Both the position numbers and the translations under genes were made by a program. From contig NZ_FSRE01000002.1 in assembly GCF_900141795.1 (NCBI RefSeq), forward strand, positions 434,001 through 498,000: a stretch of DNA of 64,000 nucleotides, read 5' to 3'. This document shows positions 1,442-50,322 of this stretch, piece by piece (position 1 is the first letter of the stretch; each line of letters opens with the position of its first letter). Source of the stretch: Sulfurivirga caldicuralii. GTDB taxonomy: Bacteria; Pseudomonadota; Gammaproteobacteria; Thiomicrospirales; Thiomicrospiraceae. Under the pieces are notes generated by a model. The model was not told where the DNA came from. It saw only the letters and a program-made list of their open reading frames with translations, and made no database searches.

Positions 1442-1933
1442 TTAACGCTTGCCAGTGCCCATCAGATAGTGCTCCATGGCGGAAATGTCCTGACTCATGG
1501 TGCGCACTAGATGATCGAGACTCACGATAGCGTTTTCCAGAATGTTTACCGCAATATAGGGCTCTTCCACCTTGAGGCGGTCGTACATGGGGCGGGTCAG
1601 CTCCAGCAGAATGACTTCGCGGCTGTCGGCCTGCATGCGCAGATTGCGCGGCTTGCGGTCAAAAAAGGACATTTCACCAATCAGCGTGCCTTCCGGCTGG
1701 GTGCCGACTTCCACCACTTCGTGACCATTCTTGCTGTAGAAACCCACCTTGCCCTCGTAAACGTAATAGAGCGCTTCGCCCACTTCGCCCATGTCGGAAA
1801 TGATGTCGCCCTGCTTGTAGTGGCGCTCATGCAGGTAATTGCTCAGTCGCTTGACCTCGTCCCGGGTCAGGGATTCACAGATCTTGTACTGCTGGAAAAA
1901 GTCGTAAAGCTGTTCCGGGGTGATTTCTTTCAT
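1442..1933 (-). CDS. Cyclic nucleotide-binding domain protein without a DNA-binding domain
   Basis: This 163-residue protein consists almost entirely of one CRP-type cyclic nucleotide-binding beta-roll (about residues 15-130), including KQGDIISDMGEVGEALYYVYEGKV and LIGEMSFFDRKPR, the position of the phosphate-binding cassette. A helical tail follows (residues 130-163); there is no helix-turn-helix, so it is not a CRP/FNR transcription factor. It probably senses a nucleotide or acts as a protein-interaction module (inference). Its start codon overlaps the stop of the methyltransferase gene (ATGA), making it the last gene of the leftward truB unit. Confidence 0.82.
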   Translation of the reverse strand: MKEITPEQLYDFFQQYKICESLTRDEVKRLSNYLHERHYKQGDIISDMGEVGEALYYVYEGKVGFYSKNGHEVVEVGTQPEGTLIGEMSFFDRKPRNLRMQADSREVILLELTRPMYDRLKVEEPYIAVNILENAIVSLDHLVRTMSQDISAMEHYLMGTGKR

Positions 1934-16689: not shown

Positions 16690-17325
16690 ATGAACAGTAT
16701 TGTAGAGGCTGCGCCCCGCGCCGCAATGGAAGATGTGCTCGATGGACTCACCGAGCAGGGCTATGCCGTCGTTCCAGACTTTCTACCCGAATCCCTGCGC
16801 AATGCGCTGTATCAGCAGGCCGTGCAGTCGTACCAGAGCGACGGCATGCATCGGGCCAGCATCGGGCAGGGACGGGACAACCAGATAAACACGTCCATCC
16901 GCGGCGACAGCATTGTGTGGCTAGACGGCAGCACGCCTGCCCAGCGCGACTTTCTGGAAAGAATGGACGCCTATCGCGCCCTGCTCAACCGGTCCCTCTA
17001 TCTGGGCATCAATAACTACGAAGCCCATTTCGCCTACTATCCGCCGGGGCGCTACTACCGCACCCACTGGGACAATTTCCGCGGCCGCAGCAACCGCCTC
17101 GTGACCACCGTGCTTTACCTGAACCCCCATTGGTCATCCGACTGCGGTGGCGAGCTGGTGCTGTACGCAGAGGATGAAAAAACCGTGCGGGAGACGATCG
17201 TGCCGCAACCGGGCATGCTAGTCACCTTCATGAGCGCACAGATTCCCCACGAAGTGCGCCCCACCCACCAACCCCGAGTCAGTATTGCCGGCTGGATGCG
17301 TCGGGATAGCATTTTGAGCCGCTAA
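16690..17325 (+). CDS. 2-oxoglutarate/Fe(II)-dependent oxygenase, prolyl 4-hydroxylase-like
   Basis: This 211-residue protein carries the iron-binding facial triad: HWD (HxD, near residues 126-128) and a distal His in QIPHEVRPT, then the oxoglutarate-binding Arg in PRVSIAGWMR. The N-terminal EQGYAVVPDFLPESL is typical of the P4Hc type. The substrate, possibly a protein side chain, is unknown. The start is fixed by a GGAGG site; an upstream in-frame start would overlap rlmI. Confidence 0.87.
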   Translation: MNSIVEAAPRAAMEDVLDGLTEQGYAVVPDFLPESLRNALYQQAVQSYQSDGMHRASIGQGRDNQINTSIRGDSIVWLDGSTPAQRDFLERMDAYRALLNRSLYLGINNYEAHFAYYPPGRYYRTHWDNFRGRSNRLVTTVLYLNPHWSSDCGGELVLYAEDEKTVRETIVPQPGMLVTFMSAQIPHEVRPTHQPRVSIAGWMRRDSILSR

Positions 17326-23590: not shown

Positions 23591-23623
23591 AAAGCCTTTC
23601 GTTGCAGTGCAACGAAAGGCTTT
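23591..23623 (-). terminator. Strong hairpin behind pal
   Basis: A perfect 15-bp stem AAAGCCTTTCGTTGC/GCAACGAAAGGCTTT with a 3-base loop, between pal and pepN. The following T run is only three bases, so it may stabilise the pal mRNA end as well as terminate. Confidence 0.7.
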
Positions 23624-23646: not shown

Positions 23647-24195
23647 TCAGTGCGGACGGACGAAGGCGTTAATGCCATACACGAATGTTGCACGGCGGTT
23701 TTTCGCCCACGCCTCTTCATTGTGCGCCGGATCCAGCGGATAGGCCTCACCGTAACTTACGGTCTGAATGCGACTGGGGCTGACACCTTCAGCTACCAGC
23801 GCATTGTAGGCTGCATTGGCACGGCGCTCACCCAGTGCCAGGTTGTATTCATCACTGCCACGCTCATCACAGTAACCGGCAATGGTGACTTTCACTTCAG
23901 GATGCGCCGCCATGAACTTGGCATGTTCCTGAATGACGGAGAAGTATTCAGGCTTGATGGCTGACTTGTCAAAATCGAAATGAACACGCTTTTCGCGCAG
24001 AGCCACCATCTGCTGTTGCAGCACCTCGCGAGACTCCACCGCTTCTTCTGCTGCGACGTTTGTCTTGGCTGCGTCCTGAGCCGCTTCTGTTTTCGCTGCT
24101 TCTGCTGGCGTTGCTTCCTGTTTCGGTGTACTGCTACACCCTGTCAGGGCCAGTCCCAGAAAACCTGCCGCAAACAGCATATGAAGTTTTTTCAT
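23647..24195 (-). CDS. pal: Peptidoglycan-associated lipoprotein (Pal/OmpA family)
   Basis: The 182 residues have a lipoprotein signal with lipobox LALTGC (Cys20), a Lys/Glu/Ala-rich linker, and an OmpA-like peptidoglycan-binding domain (VHFDFDKSAI, GYCDERGSDEYNLALGERRA, RIQTVSYGEAYP). Pal tethers the outer membrane to peptidoglycan in the Tol-Pal complex; here it is not next to tolB, so a Pal-like paralogue is possible. The ATG used has an AAGGAG site; a TTG five codons upstream overlaps that site. Confidence 0.88.
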   Translation of the reverse strand: MKKLHMLFAAGFLGLALTGCSSTPKQEATPAEAAKTEAAQDAAKTNVAAEEAVESREVLQQQMVALREKRVHFDFDKSAIKPEYFSVIQEHAKFMAAHPEVKVTIAGYCDERGSDEYNLALGERRANAAYNALVAEGVSPSRIQTVSYGEAYPLDPAHNEEAWAKNRRATFVYGINAFVRPH

Positions 24196-24280: not shown

Positions 24281-24306
24281 AAAAAAACCCGGACATCTGT
24301 CCGGGT
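24281..24306 (-). terminator. Intrinsic terminator downstream of fnr / end of candidate small RNA
   Basis: Read leftward: perfect 9-bp stem ACCCGGACA/TGTCCGGGT with a 2-base core loop (GA), followed by seven T. It lies about 100 bases behind the fnr stop. Confidence 0.9.
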
Positions 24307-24355
24307 CAAGCGGGCTACATTATGGAGGAACCGATCAAATCGATTTCCATCAGCA
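24281..24355 (-). ncRNA. Candidate FNR-dependent small RNA
   Basis: Between the fnr stop and the terminator, a promoter can be read that would produce a transcript of about 75 bases with no plausible coding frame. It contains GGTTCCTCCATAATG, a CU-rich stretch able to pair with Shine-Dalgarno sequences, an AAATCGATTT palindrome, and ends in a strong Rho-independent terminator, the general plan of Hfq-binding trans-acting small RNAs such as FnrS. Sequence homology to FnrS was not seen; the assignment rests on promoter and terminator placement. Confidence 0.5.
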
Positions 24356-24361
24356 GTTCCC

Positions 24362-24403
24362 ATTAAACCCTATTTAAGATAGGGAATACTTGACCCAGAT
24401 CAA
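24362..24403 (-). promoter_or_regulatory. FNR-box (class II) promoter behind fnr
   Basis: Read leftward: TTGATCTGGGTCAA, one mismatch from the FNR consensus TTGAT-N4-ATCAA, and a -10 TTTAAT (5 of 6). With a start near 24355, the box centre is at -41.5, the standard position for FNR-activated class II promoters. Confidence 0.6.
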
Positions 24404-25141: not shown

Positions 25142-25415
25142 TGATTCAAGCCCGCTTGGATGGAGTGTACTTATATTTTTATGTGGCGAGATCGGTGCAT
25201 CACCCGTTGCGCTCGCGCCATGGACACAACGCCATGGAGAAGCATCGGATCAACCTCGCCTCGCTTGTGATCATGGTAGGTTGTTGCGCCGTTTTTTTCA
25301 ATGGAAATGATACATTCCCATGCAACCAATCCACTGTCTATTTTTTAATCAGTTTAACGCCAAGCGTTGGAATCATTGGCGATTGCGGCAAGCTTGTTGC
25401 AAACAATGCACAAAG

Positions 25416-30906: not shown

Positions 30907-32418
30907 ATGATGAATTTCCGTAAATGGCGCTGGCTATTCGCCTGCCTCCTTTCAGGGTGGCTTGCGGGTGGCCTGGCGCAGGAAGACGAAGCGTATTCAT
31001 TTAATGGGCGCCTGTTGCTGCCTTTTCAAGGGGACCTGCCCGAAATGCAGCAGCGCCGCCTGATTCGCGTACTCGTCAATCCATCACGCACCAACTTTTT
31101 TTTCGAAGGCGATCGCATTCGCGGCATCGAGCATGAACTGCTGAGCCGCTACGAACAATTTCTCAATCGCGGCCCGCGAAAACAGCGCTACCGCATTCAC
31201 CTTATCTATCTGCCCACCCCTTTCAGTGTCGTGCTGGATGGGGTGATAACCGGCAAGGGTGACATCGGTGCGGCCGGGCTGACCATCACCCCTGAACGCG
31301 CCAATCTGGTAGCCTTTACCAAGCCCTATCTCACAGGCATCAATGAGGTACTTGTCACTGCTGCTGATGTACCGCAGCCCAGGCGGCTGGAAGACCTATC
31401 TAACAAGGTGGTGGTTGTGGTGCGTCACAGCAGCTATGCCGCCCATCTGCAGCTCTTCAATCTGGCACTGGGACAGGCTGGCCTGCAGCCCATGGAGGTG
31501 GTTCAGGCCGACCCCACCCTGGAGGCAGAGGATATTCTTGAGCTGGTCAACGAGGGACTCGTGGACTACACCGTTGTGGACAGCCATATCGCTGCGCTGT
31601 GGGAAAAGGTCCTGCCCAATATCCGCGTGCACGAGAATTTCGTGTTTCACTATGGTGGCGAAATCGGCTGGGCAGTGCGCAAGACCAACCCCAAGTTGCT
31701 TCGCTCACTCAATGACTTCATTGAGCGCTATGCCAGGCCGGGCAAACTGCTCAGCAACATTCTCTACAAACGCTACTTTGAAAACACGCGCTGGCTGAAT
31801 CAGGACTTCACGCAAAGCGCCCGGAAAGGCTTCCGGTGCTACAAGCCGTGGCTGCATACTTTTGCAGATTTCTTCGATTTTCCCTGGCATCTGCTGGCTG
31901 CTGTCGCCTATACGGAATCACACCTGAACCCTCGCAAGAGGAGCAGTGCCGGGGCGGTGGGGTTGATGCAGATCAAGCCGGTCATTGCCCGTCAGTTTGG
32001 CATCCGCAATCTGTACGACCCCTATGACAACCTGTTTGCCGGCAGCGCCTATCTGGCCTGGCTACGGGATATCTATTTTGATGAACCCGGCTACACGCCC
32101 GAAGAACGTCTCAATTTTGTGCTAGCCGCCTATAATGCCGGCCCTACCCGCGTTCGCAAACTGCAAAAGGAAGCCGCTGCACGCGGACTCGATCCCTACA
32201 AGTGGTTTTACAACGTGGAAATCGTCGCACGTCAGCGTATTGGGCACGAAACCGTCAATTATGTGGCCCGCGTACGCAAGACCGAAACCGCGCTACGGTT
32301 GATGGAGGCCCTTGAAGAACACCAGCGCCGCGTCAAGCTGAACCTTCTCGCCCGTCAGGACGATACACCCGCACATCAAACCCCTGCGTCAGCAGATGCT
32401 GCCCGTGCAGCTGACTGA
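30907..32418 (+). CDS. MltF-like membrane-bound lytic transglycosylase
   Basis: This 503-residue exported protein has a signal peptide (WRWLFACLLSGWLAGGLAQ), a family 3 solute-binding domain (residues 55-290, LIRVLVNPSRTNFFFEGDRIRGIEHELL) and an SLT transglycosylase domain with catalytic Glu in AYTESHLNP, then GLMQI and AYNAG. It cleaves peptidoglycan between MurNAc and GlcNAc, forming 1,6-anhydro ends. A GGAGG lies about 14 bases before the chosen ATG; the adjacent second ATG or a GTG farther up are alternatives. Its 3' end overlaps the convergent thiI gene by 86 bases. Confidence 0.88.
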   Translation: MMNFRKWRWLFACLLSGWLAGGLAQEDEAYSFNGRLLLPFQGDLPEMQQRRLIRVLVNPSRTNFFFEGDRIRGIEHELLSRYEQFLNRGPRKQRYRIHLIYLPTPFSVVLDGVITGKGDIGAAGLTITPERANLVAFTKPYLTGINEVLVTAADVPQPRRLEDLSNKVVVVVRHSSYAAHLQLFNLALGQAGLQPMEVVQADPTLEAEDILELVNEGLVDYTVVDSHIAALWEKVLPNIRVHENFVFHYGGEIGWAVRKTNPKLLRSLNDFIERYARPGKLLSNILYKRYFENTRWLNQDFTQSARKGFRCYKPWLHTFADFFDFPWHLLAAVAYTESHLNPRKRSSAGAVGLMQIKPVIARQFGIRNLYDPYDNLFAGSAYLAWLRDIYFDEPGYTPEERLNFVLAAYNAGPTRVRKLQKEAAARGLDPYKWFYNVEIVARQRIGHETVNYVARVRKTETALRLMEALEEHQRRVKLNLLARQDDTPAHQTPASADAARAAD

Positions 32419-50082: not shown

Positions 50083-50098
50083 ACGCGCCCTCAAAAGC

Positions 50099-50252
50099 GC
50101 ATCAGGTGCCCTGTACGGGATAATCGGGAAGTTCGGTGCAAGTCCGACGCTGCCCCCGCAACGGTGATGGAGAAGACGCTGCACAACGCCACTGGCCAAC
50201 CGCCGGGAAGGCGCAGCGGAATGGCTCCTCAGCCCGGAGACCGGCCTGATGC
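50099..50252 (+). promoter_or_regulatory. Cobalamin (B12) riboswitch
   Basis: The leader carries the conserved parts in order: GGTGCAAGTCCGACGCTGCC, CCCGCAACGGTGA, GCCACTGGCC, GGGAAGGC and AGCCCGGAGACCGGCC, closed by the P1 helix GCATCAGG/CCTGATGC. It should bind adenosylcobalamin or a related cobalamin and repress the downstream receptor gene. Confidence 0.95.
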
Positions 50253-50322
50253 AAGCACATCAACCACATTGCGGCGGGCAATGGTGGGTACGGCACGGTC
50301 ATGACGTGCAGGCCTCCCCTTG

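Follow-up and report, generated by a model that had tools for sequence, protein, structure and literature searches.

We identified a predicted small RNA that lies directly behind fnr in a Sulfurivirga-like genome (1.67 Mb; order Thiomicrospirales), and which is very probably driven by FNR itself. Among bacterial oxygen switches, FNR is the classic one, and Sulfurivirga is a hot-vent sulfur bacterium. Taken as a whole, we think it likely that FNR activates this RNA, that the RNA acts by pairing through a conserved seed, and that fnr is subject to feedback from it. If the pairing with fnr is real, then a regulator and its RNA brake travel as one cassette, and the locus would be a natural model, and a compact one, for negative feedback by an RNA on an oxygen sensor. 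To our knowledge, small RNAs that are made under the control of FNR are known from few bacteria, which are mostly enteric or pathogenic.

A predicted small RNA between fnr and pal

We analyzed a stretch of 64,000 nucleotides ("the window"; all coordinates refer to it). The features of the locus are:

25149..25157, minus strand: predicted target site in fnr, AAGCGGGCU, complementary to the seed, at -16 to -8 from the fnr start codon
24407..25141, minus strand: fnr, encoding an oxygen-sensing activator of the Crp/Fnr family, 244 amino acids (Pfam HTH_Crp_2, cNMP_binding, Crp)
24390..24403, minus strand: FNR box TTGATCTGGGTCAA, with one mismatch to TTGATNNNNATCAA, centred at -41.5 (the class II position)
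24362..24367, minus strand: -10 element TTTAAT, 22 bases past the box
24281..24355, minus strand: predicted small RNA of ~75 nt, starting at 24355 (from sequence, folding, and covariance-model matches)
24325..24354, minus strand: 5' hairpin region, in which a CU-rich stretch lies (from folding of 13 homologues)
24308..24324, minus strand: conserved seed CAUAAUGUAGCCCGCUU, mostly single-stranded (from alignment and folding)
24281..24307, minus strand: intrinsic terminator GACCCGGACAGATGTCCGGGTTTTTTT, with a 9-pair stem and 7 U (stem pairing is kept in relatives)
23647..24195, minus strand: pal, encoding an OmpA-family lipoprotein (Pfam OmpA), the next gene and outside the unit

Along the minus strand, the order is fnr, FNR box, -10 element, predicted start (24355), terminator, and pal. 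(Another terminator-like hairpin, which is strong, with 15 pairs, lies directly 3' of pal at 23591-23623 on the minus strand.) The translation of fnr contains an N-terminal C-x2-C-x5-C motif and a central cysteine, and its recognition helix reads ETFSR. With these cysteines, the ETFSR helix, and the Pfam domains, the genome appears to encode a true FNR, adjacent to the RNA, and the protein is predicted to carry an Fe-S cluster.

Because the -10 element is 22 bases after the box, the box has its centre at -41.5 relative to the predicted start (24355). A first-pass annotation of this DNA had described a one-mismatch FNR box, a -10 element, class II spacing, a terminator, and a predicted RNA of about 75 bases, and we found all of these as it claimed. 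By itself, a one-mismatch FNR box is weak evidence for a promoter: the window contains five of them, with 1.6 expected. The window also contains a perfect FNR box (TTGATGCAGATCAA, 31963-31976, plus strand), which is probably a chance match because it is inside a long reading frame. Elsewhere in the window is a clear cobalamin riboswitch (50087-50263, plus strand; Rfam RF00174, 110.9 bits).

The predicted promoter and RNA, and their linkage to fnr, are conserved

Searching relatives at the DNA level, we recovered the interval from 15 genomes, each time beside fnr, and we built a covariance model from these. The model identifies 30 clear copies (E < 1e-8) in 30 of 63 Thiomicrospirales genomes. 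Every copy is directly behind fnr, and among the 63 genomes from the order, we saw no copy without fnr beside it. All 30 loci also have an FNR box, with no mismatches in 17 of them and one mismatch in 13. The box is followed by a -10 element at a spacing of 21–22 bases in 30 of 30 loci, which places the centre of the box at about -41.5. (A script scored the spacing as 22 in 22 genomes, 21 in three genomes, and 17 in five genomes. In the five genomes that were scored as 17, the script picked TATGGT-like hexamers, and TTAAAT, TCAAAT, TGAAAT, or TTCAAT is visible at 22. Counting by eye on the sequences gives 27 genomes at 22.) Most of the relatives have an extended -10 element such as TATGGTCTAAT. 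Because the box, the -10 spacing, the RNA core, and the terminator are kept in 30 of 30 loci, the FNR box is more than a chance match. The first-pass annotation had proposed an FNR-activated, terminator-ended small RNA directly behind fnr, and had set conservation of the box and the -10 element in relatives as the test beforehand; with both conserved in all 30 loci, the proposal is well backed as a prediction from sequence.

Outside of Thiomicrospirales, our searches gave almost no matches to the RNA. In an exact pattern scan of ~85,000 species genomes, the core plus terminator was confined to Thiomicrospirales, with two exceptions. One is an Oscillospiraceae match that has neither fnr nor a box, which we take to be chance. 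The other is on a short contig labelled Lysobacterales (L088, JALWKC010000190.1), which carries a Sulfurivirga-like fnr as well as this RNA; the label is probably a binning error. Among 274 genomes of the class, the covariance model had zero matches in the other orders. No Rfam family reached its threshold for this RNA, and in the literature that we searched, we found no report of this RNA or of one in this order. If FNR does drive it, this would be an order-wide family of FNR-driven small RNAs in chemoautotrophic sulfur oxidisers that is absent from Rfam.

The predicted 75-nt RNA folds 3.7 standard deviations better than shuffled sequences do. Folding of the homologues gives a 5' hairpin (in most of them, and absent in some), an open stretch, and a terminator hairpin. 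CAUAAUGUAGCCCGCUU is nearly invariant across the homologues and is unpaired in most of the folds. Within the first 15 aligned sequences, AUGUAGCCCGCUU is identical, and a few of the later sequences (such as L030, L044, and L045) have one to three changes in the seed region. The sequence of the terminator stem varies between relatives, but its pairs are retained. Aside from the seed and the terminator, which are conserved, the bases drift. The terminator is present and conserved, as expected for a discrete transcript, and the transcript itself is predicted. The U-rich tail of the terminator is compatible with binding by Hfq and says no more than that; hfq is encoded in all 8 of the genomes examined. 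Comparison across the order demonstrates the geometry of the putative promoter, the predicted RNA unit, the conservation of the seed, and the linkage to fnr.

The acting part of the RNA is probably not the one that was suggested originally. The first-pass annotation favored a CU-rich stretch, TTCCTCC. The stretch exists (24330-24324), but it is largely base-paired in the 5' hairpin, and it is kept only in Sulfurivirga and a few others; the next 15–17 bases are the nearly invariant part. Because TTCCTCC varies between genera and is mostly paired, whereas CAUAAUGUAGCCCGCUU is nearly invariant and open, we take the latter as the seed.

Other explanations for the conserved locus

So far we have assumed that the RNA has its own promoter and acts as an RNA. 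It could instead be merely the 3' UTR of fnr with its terminator, or a small RNA that is processed from the fnr mRNA, with the box as a chance match. The position immediately downstream of fnr fits this idea, and a transcript of fnr would share the terminator. However, the box and the -10 element are at a near-fixed spacing in 30 of 30 loci while the DNA between them drifts, and we consider an origin from the fnr transcript only to be very improbable. The two origins may coexist because transcripts that run on from fnr would produce the RNA as well. Similarly, in most of the loci, fnr, the RNA, and pal follow one another on one strand, so we considered that the RNA might be a 5' leader whose conditional terminator regulates pal. 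But in one genus (L018, L020, L035, and L036), the next gene is convergent, which largely refutes a leader for pal. Furthermore, pal still comes after fnr in genomes where the RNA was lost. A role as a pal leader seems just as improbable as an origin in the fnr transcript. Even less credible is a short coding gene. An 11-codon frame (MEIDLIGSSIM) is retained in Sulfurivirga, but it is broken in other genera, where the RNA core is retained. Also, the ATG is just ~5 bases from the 5' end (with the start at 24355), so there is no room for a ribosome-binding site. We rejected this peptide, as its frame is not conserved.

Proposed mechanism

Our preferred reading remains a separate small RNA that is activated by FNR. 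We infer that when oxygen is low, FNR dimers would occupy the box (centre at -41.5) and switch on expression from 24355 in the class II manner, and that the terminator would end transcription near 24281. The RNA would act in trans, probably with the assistance of Hfq, and would display the open seed UAAUGUAGCCCGCUU, flanked by the 5' hairpin and the terminator. Through this seed, the RNA would pair with the start regions of mRNAs and block their translation, and the fnr mRNA would be first among these targets. This retains the outline of the mechanism in the first-pass annotation, but with another seed, and sodB is unmatched (see below).

The fnr mRNA as a predicted target

The complement of the seed, AAGCGGGCUACAUUAUG, resembles the start region of fnr. 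In this genome, the 9-base match to the seed (AAGCGGGCU, at -16 to -8 of fnr) is the only match of at least 8 bases among 424 sampled start regions. (The target ranking sampled ~460 kb of this genome and 400 kb of the genome G065.) In G003, 10 matching bases are in codons 2-5 of fnr, and in G001 and G002, 7 matching bases are in codons 2-4, so the site in fnr is at differing positions within one genus. Several genomes from the genera g2 and g3 have GGGCUA or GGCUAC just 5' of the fnr start codon. Of the 316 start regions ranked in G065, that of fnr comes first.

We formed the hypothesis of a site in fnr by eye, and we then tested it on the same data with controls. At least six bases of GCGGGCTAC are present in the fnr start regions of 12 of the 30 genomes with the RNA and in none of the 23 without it; because the genomes are related, these counts are not independent, and p-values from them overstate the evidence. 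Among background start regions, the frequency of at least six bases of GCGGGCTAC is 0.3% in G065 and 3.3% in G000. In mean energy, fnr regions from genomes with the RNA differed from those of genomes lacking it by more than was seen with 300 shuffled seeds (p = 0.003, with the same caveat). As a control, we considered the gene after the RNA, which has no such match (median of -6.0 kcal/mol, versus -13.5 kcal/mol for fnr).

Other results argue against fnr as a target. When the start regions in this genome are ordered by duplex energy with the wider RNA, fnr comes only 30th of 424. About a third of the genomes with the RNA (~10 of 30) have no notable complementarity in fnr, and 6 of the 23 genomes without the RNA are also in the top 5% by energy. 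In a swap test, the fnr of the same species gave each RNA no better pairing than the fnr of other species did. The absence of an own-species advantage is expected if the seed and the site are shared, but it also means that there is no support from co-variation, and we rejected species-specific co-evolution of the RNA and the fnr site.

On balance, the fnr mRNA is the best-supported target of the predicted RNA, and we lean slightly towards the view that it is a genuine target, both in Sulfurivirga and in several other clades. In that case, the unit would form a negative feedback loop, with FNR producing the RNA and the RNA limiting the synthesis of FNR. Our proposal also gives a testable reading to the RNA's position behind the regulator gene, which the first-pass annotation had singled out. 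The probability that fnr is the only target is low, because several clades keep the seed without a site in fnr.

Since fnr has no site in those clades, something else must hold the seed there. So we also considered an FnrS-like role, in which FNR activates the RNA but the RNA acts mainly on mRNAs other than fnr (for instance those of genes for aerobic life), with the complementarity to fnr being secondary or accidental. Retention of the seed without the fnr site favors this alternative, as does the limited search for targets: the ranking covered the samples from two genomes described above, and our search across 28 genomes was for matches of 9 seed bases. However, the other candidates did not hold up. 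sodB is a classic known target of FnrS, but the start regions of sodB (n = 16) did not match the seed (median of -6.8 kcal/mol), and we rejected it. The top energy match in this genome is the gene for a cNMP-binding protein (1442-1933, minus strand), but the match in its start region is not conserved among relatives, and we rejected this candidate as well. Across 28 genomes, we inspected 16 sites where 9 seed bases precede an ATG, and none of them was a convincing gene start. In the genome itself, the extended seed complement has 39 matches, versus 31 for the control, which is not a clear enrichment. We consider it rather unlikely that the main targets are mRNAs other than fnr.

Two other genes in the window came up during this search. 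The cNMP-binding-domain protein (1442-1933) has no detected DNA-binding domain and is present in 60 of 62 genomes of the order. The start region of a 2OG-Fe(II) oxygenase gene (16690-17325, plus strand; CCATTGGGAGGAAACATG) pairs well with the RNA in this genome and ranks 6th of 424.

Origin and loss of the RNA

In the 23 genomes that have fnr but not the RNA, the box, the seed, and the terminator are all absent behind fnr, save for one box-like remnant. The remnant (ATGATTTGGATCAA) is in L141, ~119 bases past the end of fnr; this genome has lost the RNA while the surrounding clade keeps it. The box-like sequence is perhaps a decaying copy. Three Thiomicrospira genomes (G008, G015, and G029, of genus g6) have neither the RNA nor a match to FNR at E ≤ 1e-40, and two further genomes likewise have no match to FNR at this threshold. 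A quick tree of FNR, with long branches, requires five changes in the presence of the RNA, of which two are forced by well-supported branches. As the RNA is found in Sulfurivirga and in most of the other genera, an old origin followed by repeated loss is likely. That relatives have repeatedly lost the whole cassette but retained fnr makes for a ready-made comparison.

A broader claim would be that this is an undescribed RNA family that is ancestral to Thiomicrospirales, and that it forms a self-contained two-gene oxygen switch with fnr: FNR drives the RNA, and the RNA shuts off the translation of fnr. The seed would have been held almost constant while the target site in fnr moved, lying in the 5' region in some genomes and in the first codons in others. 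We see the chances for and against this broader claim as evenly balanced.

Comparison with known systems

FnrS from E. coli is an FNR-activated small RNA that is made without oxygen and represses mRNAs (Durand and Storz 2010; reviewed in PMC8139620). FNR-type control, which is predicted here, is common to both RNAs. But this RNA has no sequence similarity to FnrS and has a different seed, sodB is unmatched, the RNA is located behind fnr, and fnr is a predicted target. Furthermore, the Rfam model for FnrS gave no match at its gathering score, nor at any E value up to 5. The analogy to FnrS in the first-pass annotation is thus apt for the type of control, but a close likeness in targets is not borne out.

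AniS of meningococci and FnrS of gonococci are small RNAs made under oxygen limitation whose targets have been called elusive (PMC5362039). The likeness to AniS is that of a low-oxygen small RNA, as is predicted here; we detected no sequence similarity. SicX from Pseudomonas aeruginosa has an upstream motif for Anr (an FNR homologue), is induced at low oxygen, and ends in a terminator; it activates the translation of ubiUVT, and Hfq is not needed for that (PMC10247376). The upstream FNR-type motif and the terminator are common to SicX and this RNA, but the RNAs are different.

The circuit that we predict is like that of OmrA and OmrB in E. coli, in which an activator induces small RNAs that repress the activator's own mRNA, ompR-envZ (PMC12692685). 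The regulator and the RNA are unrelated, and the Rfam model for OmrA-B (RF00079) scored 20.6 bits, versus a cut-off of 40. Because the model matches and the sodB test fail, we place this RNA outside of the FnrS and OmrA-B families. Small RNAs that derive from 3' UTRs autoregulate a gene with an RNA from the gene's own mRNA (PMC7398697). Our RNA is likewise encoded just 3' of the gene that it would feed back on; what differs here is the separate FNR-type promoter. With such a promoter predicted in 30 of 30 loci, we would describe this as a new RNA that probably belongs to the known functional class of FNR-activated small RNAs.
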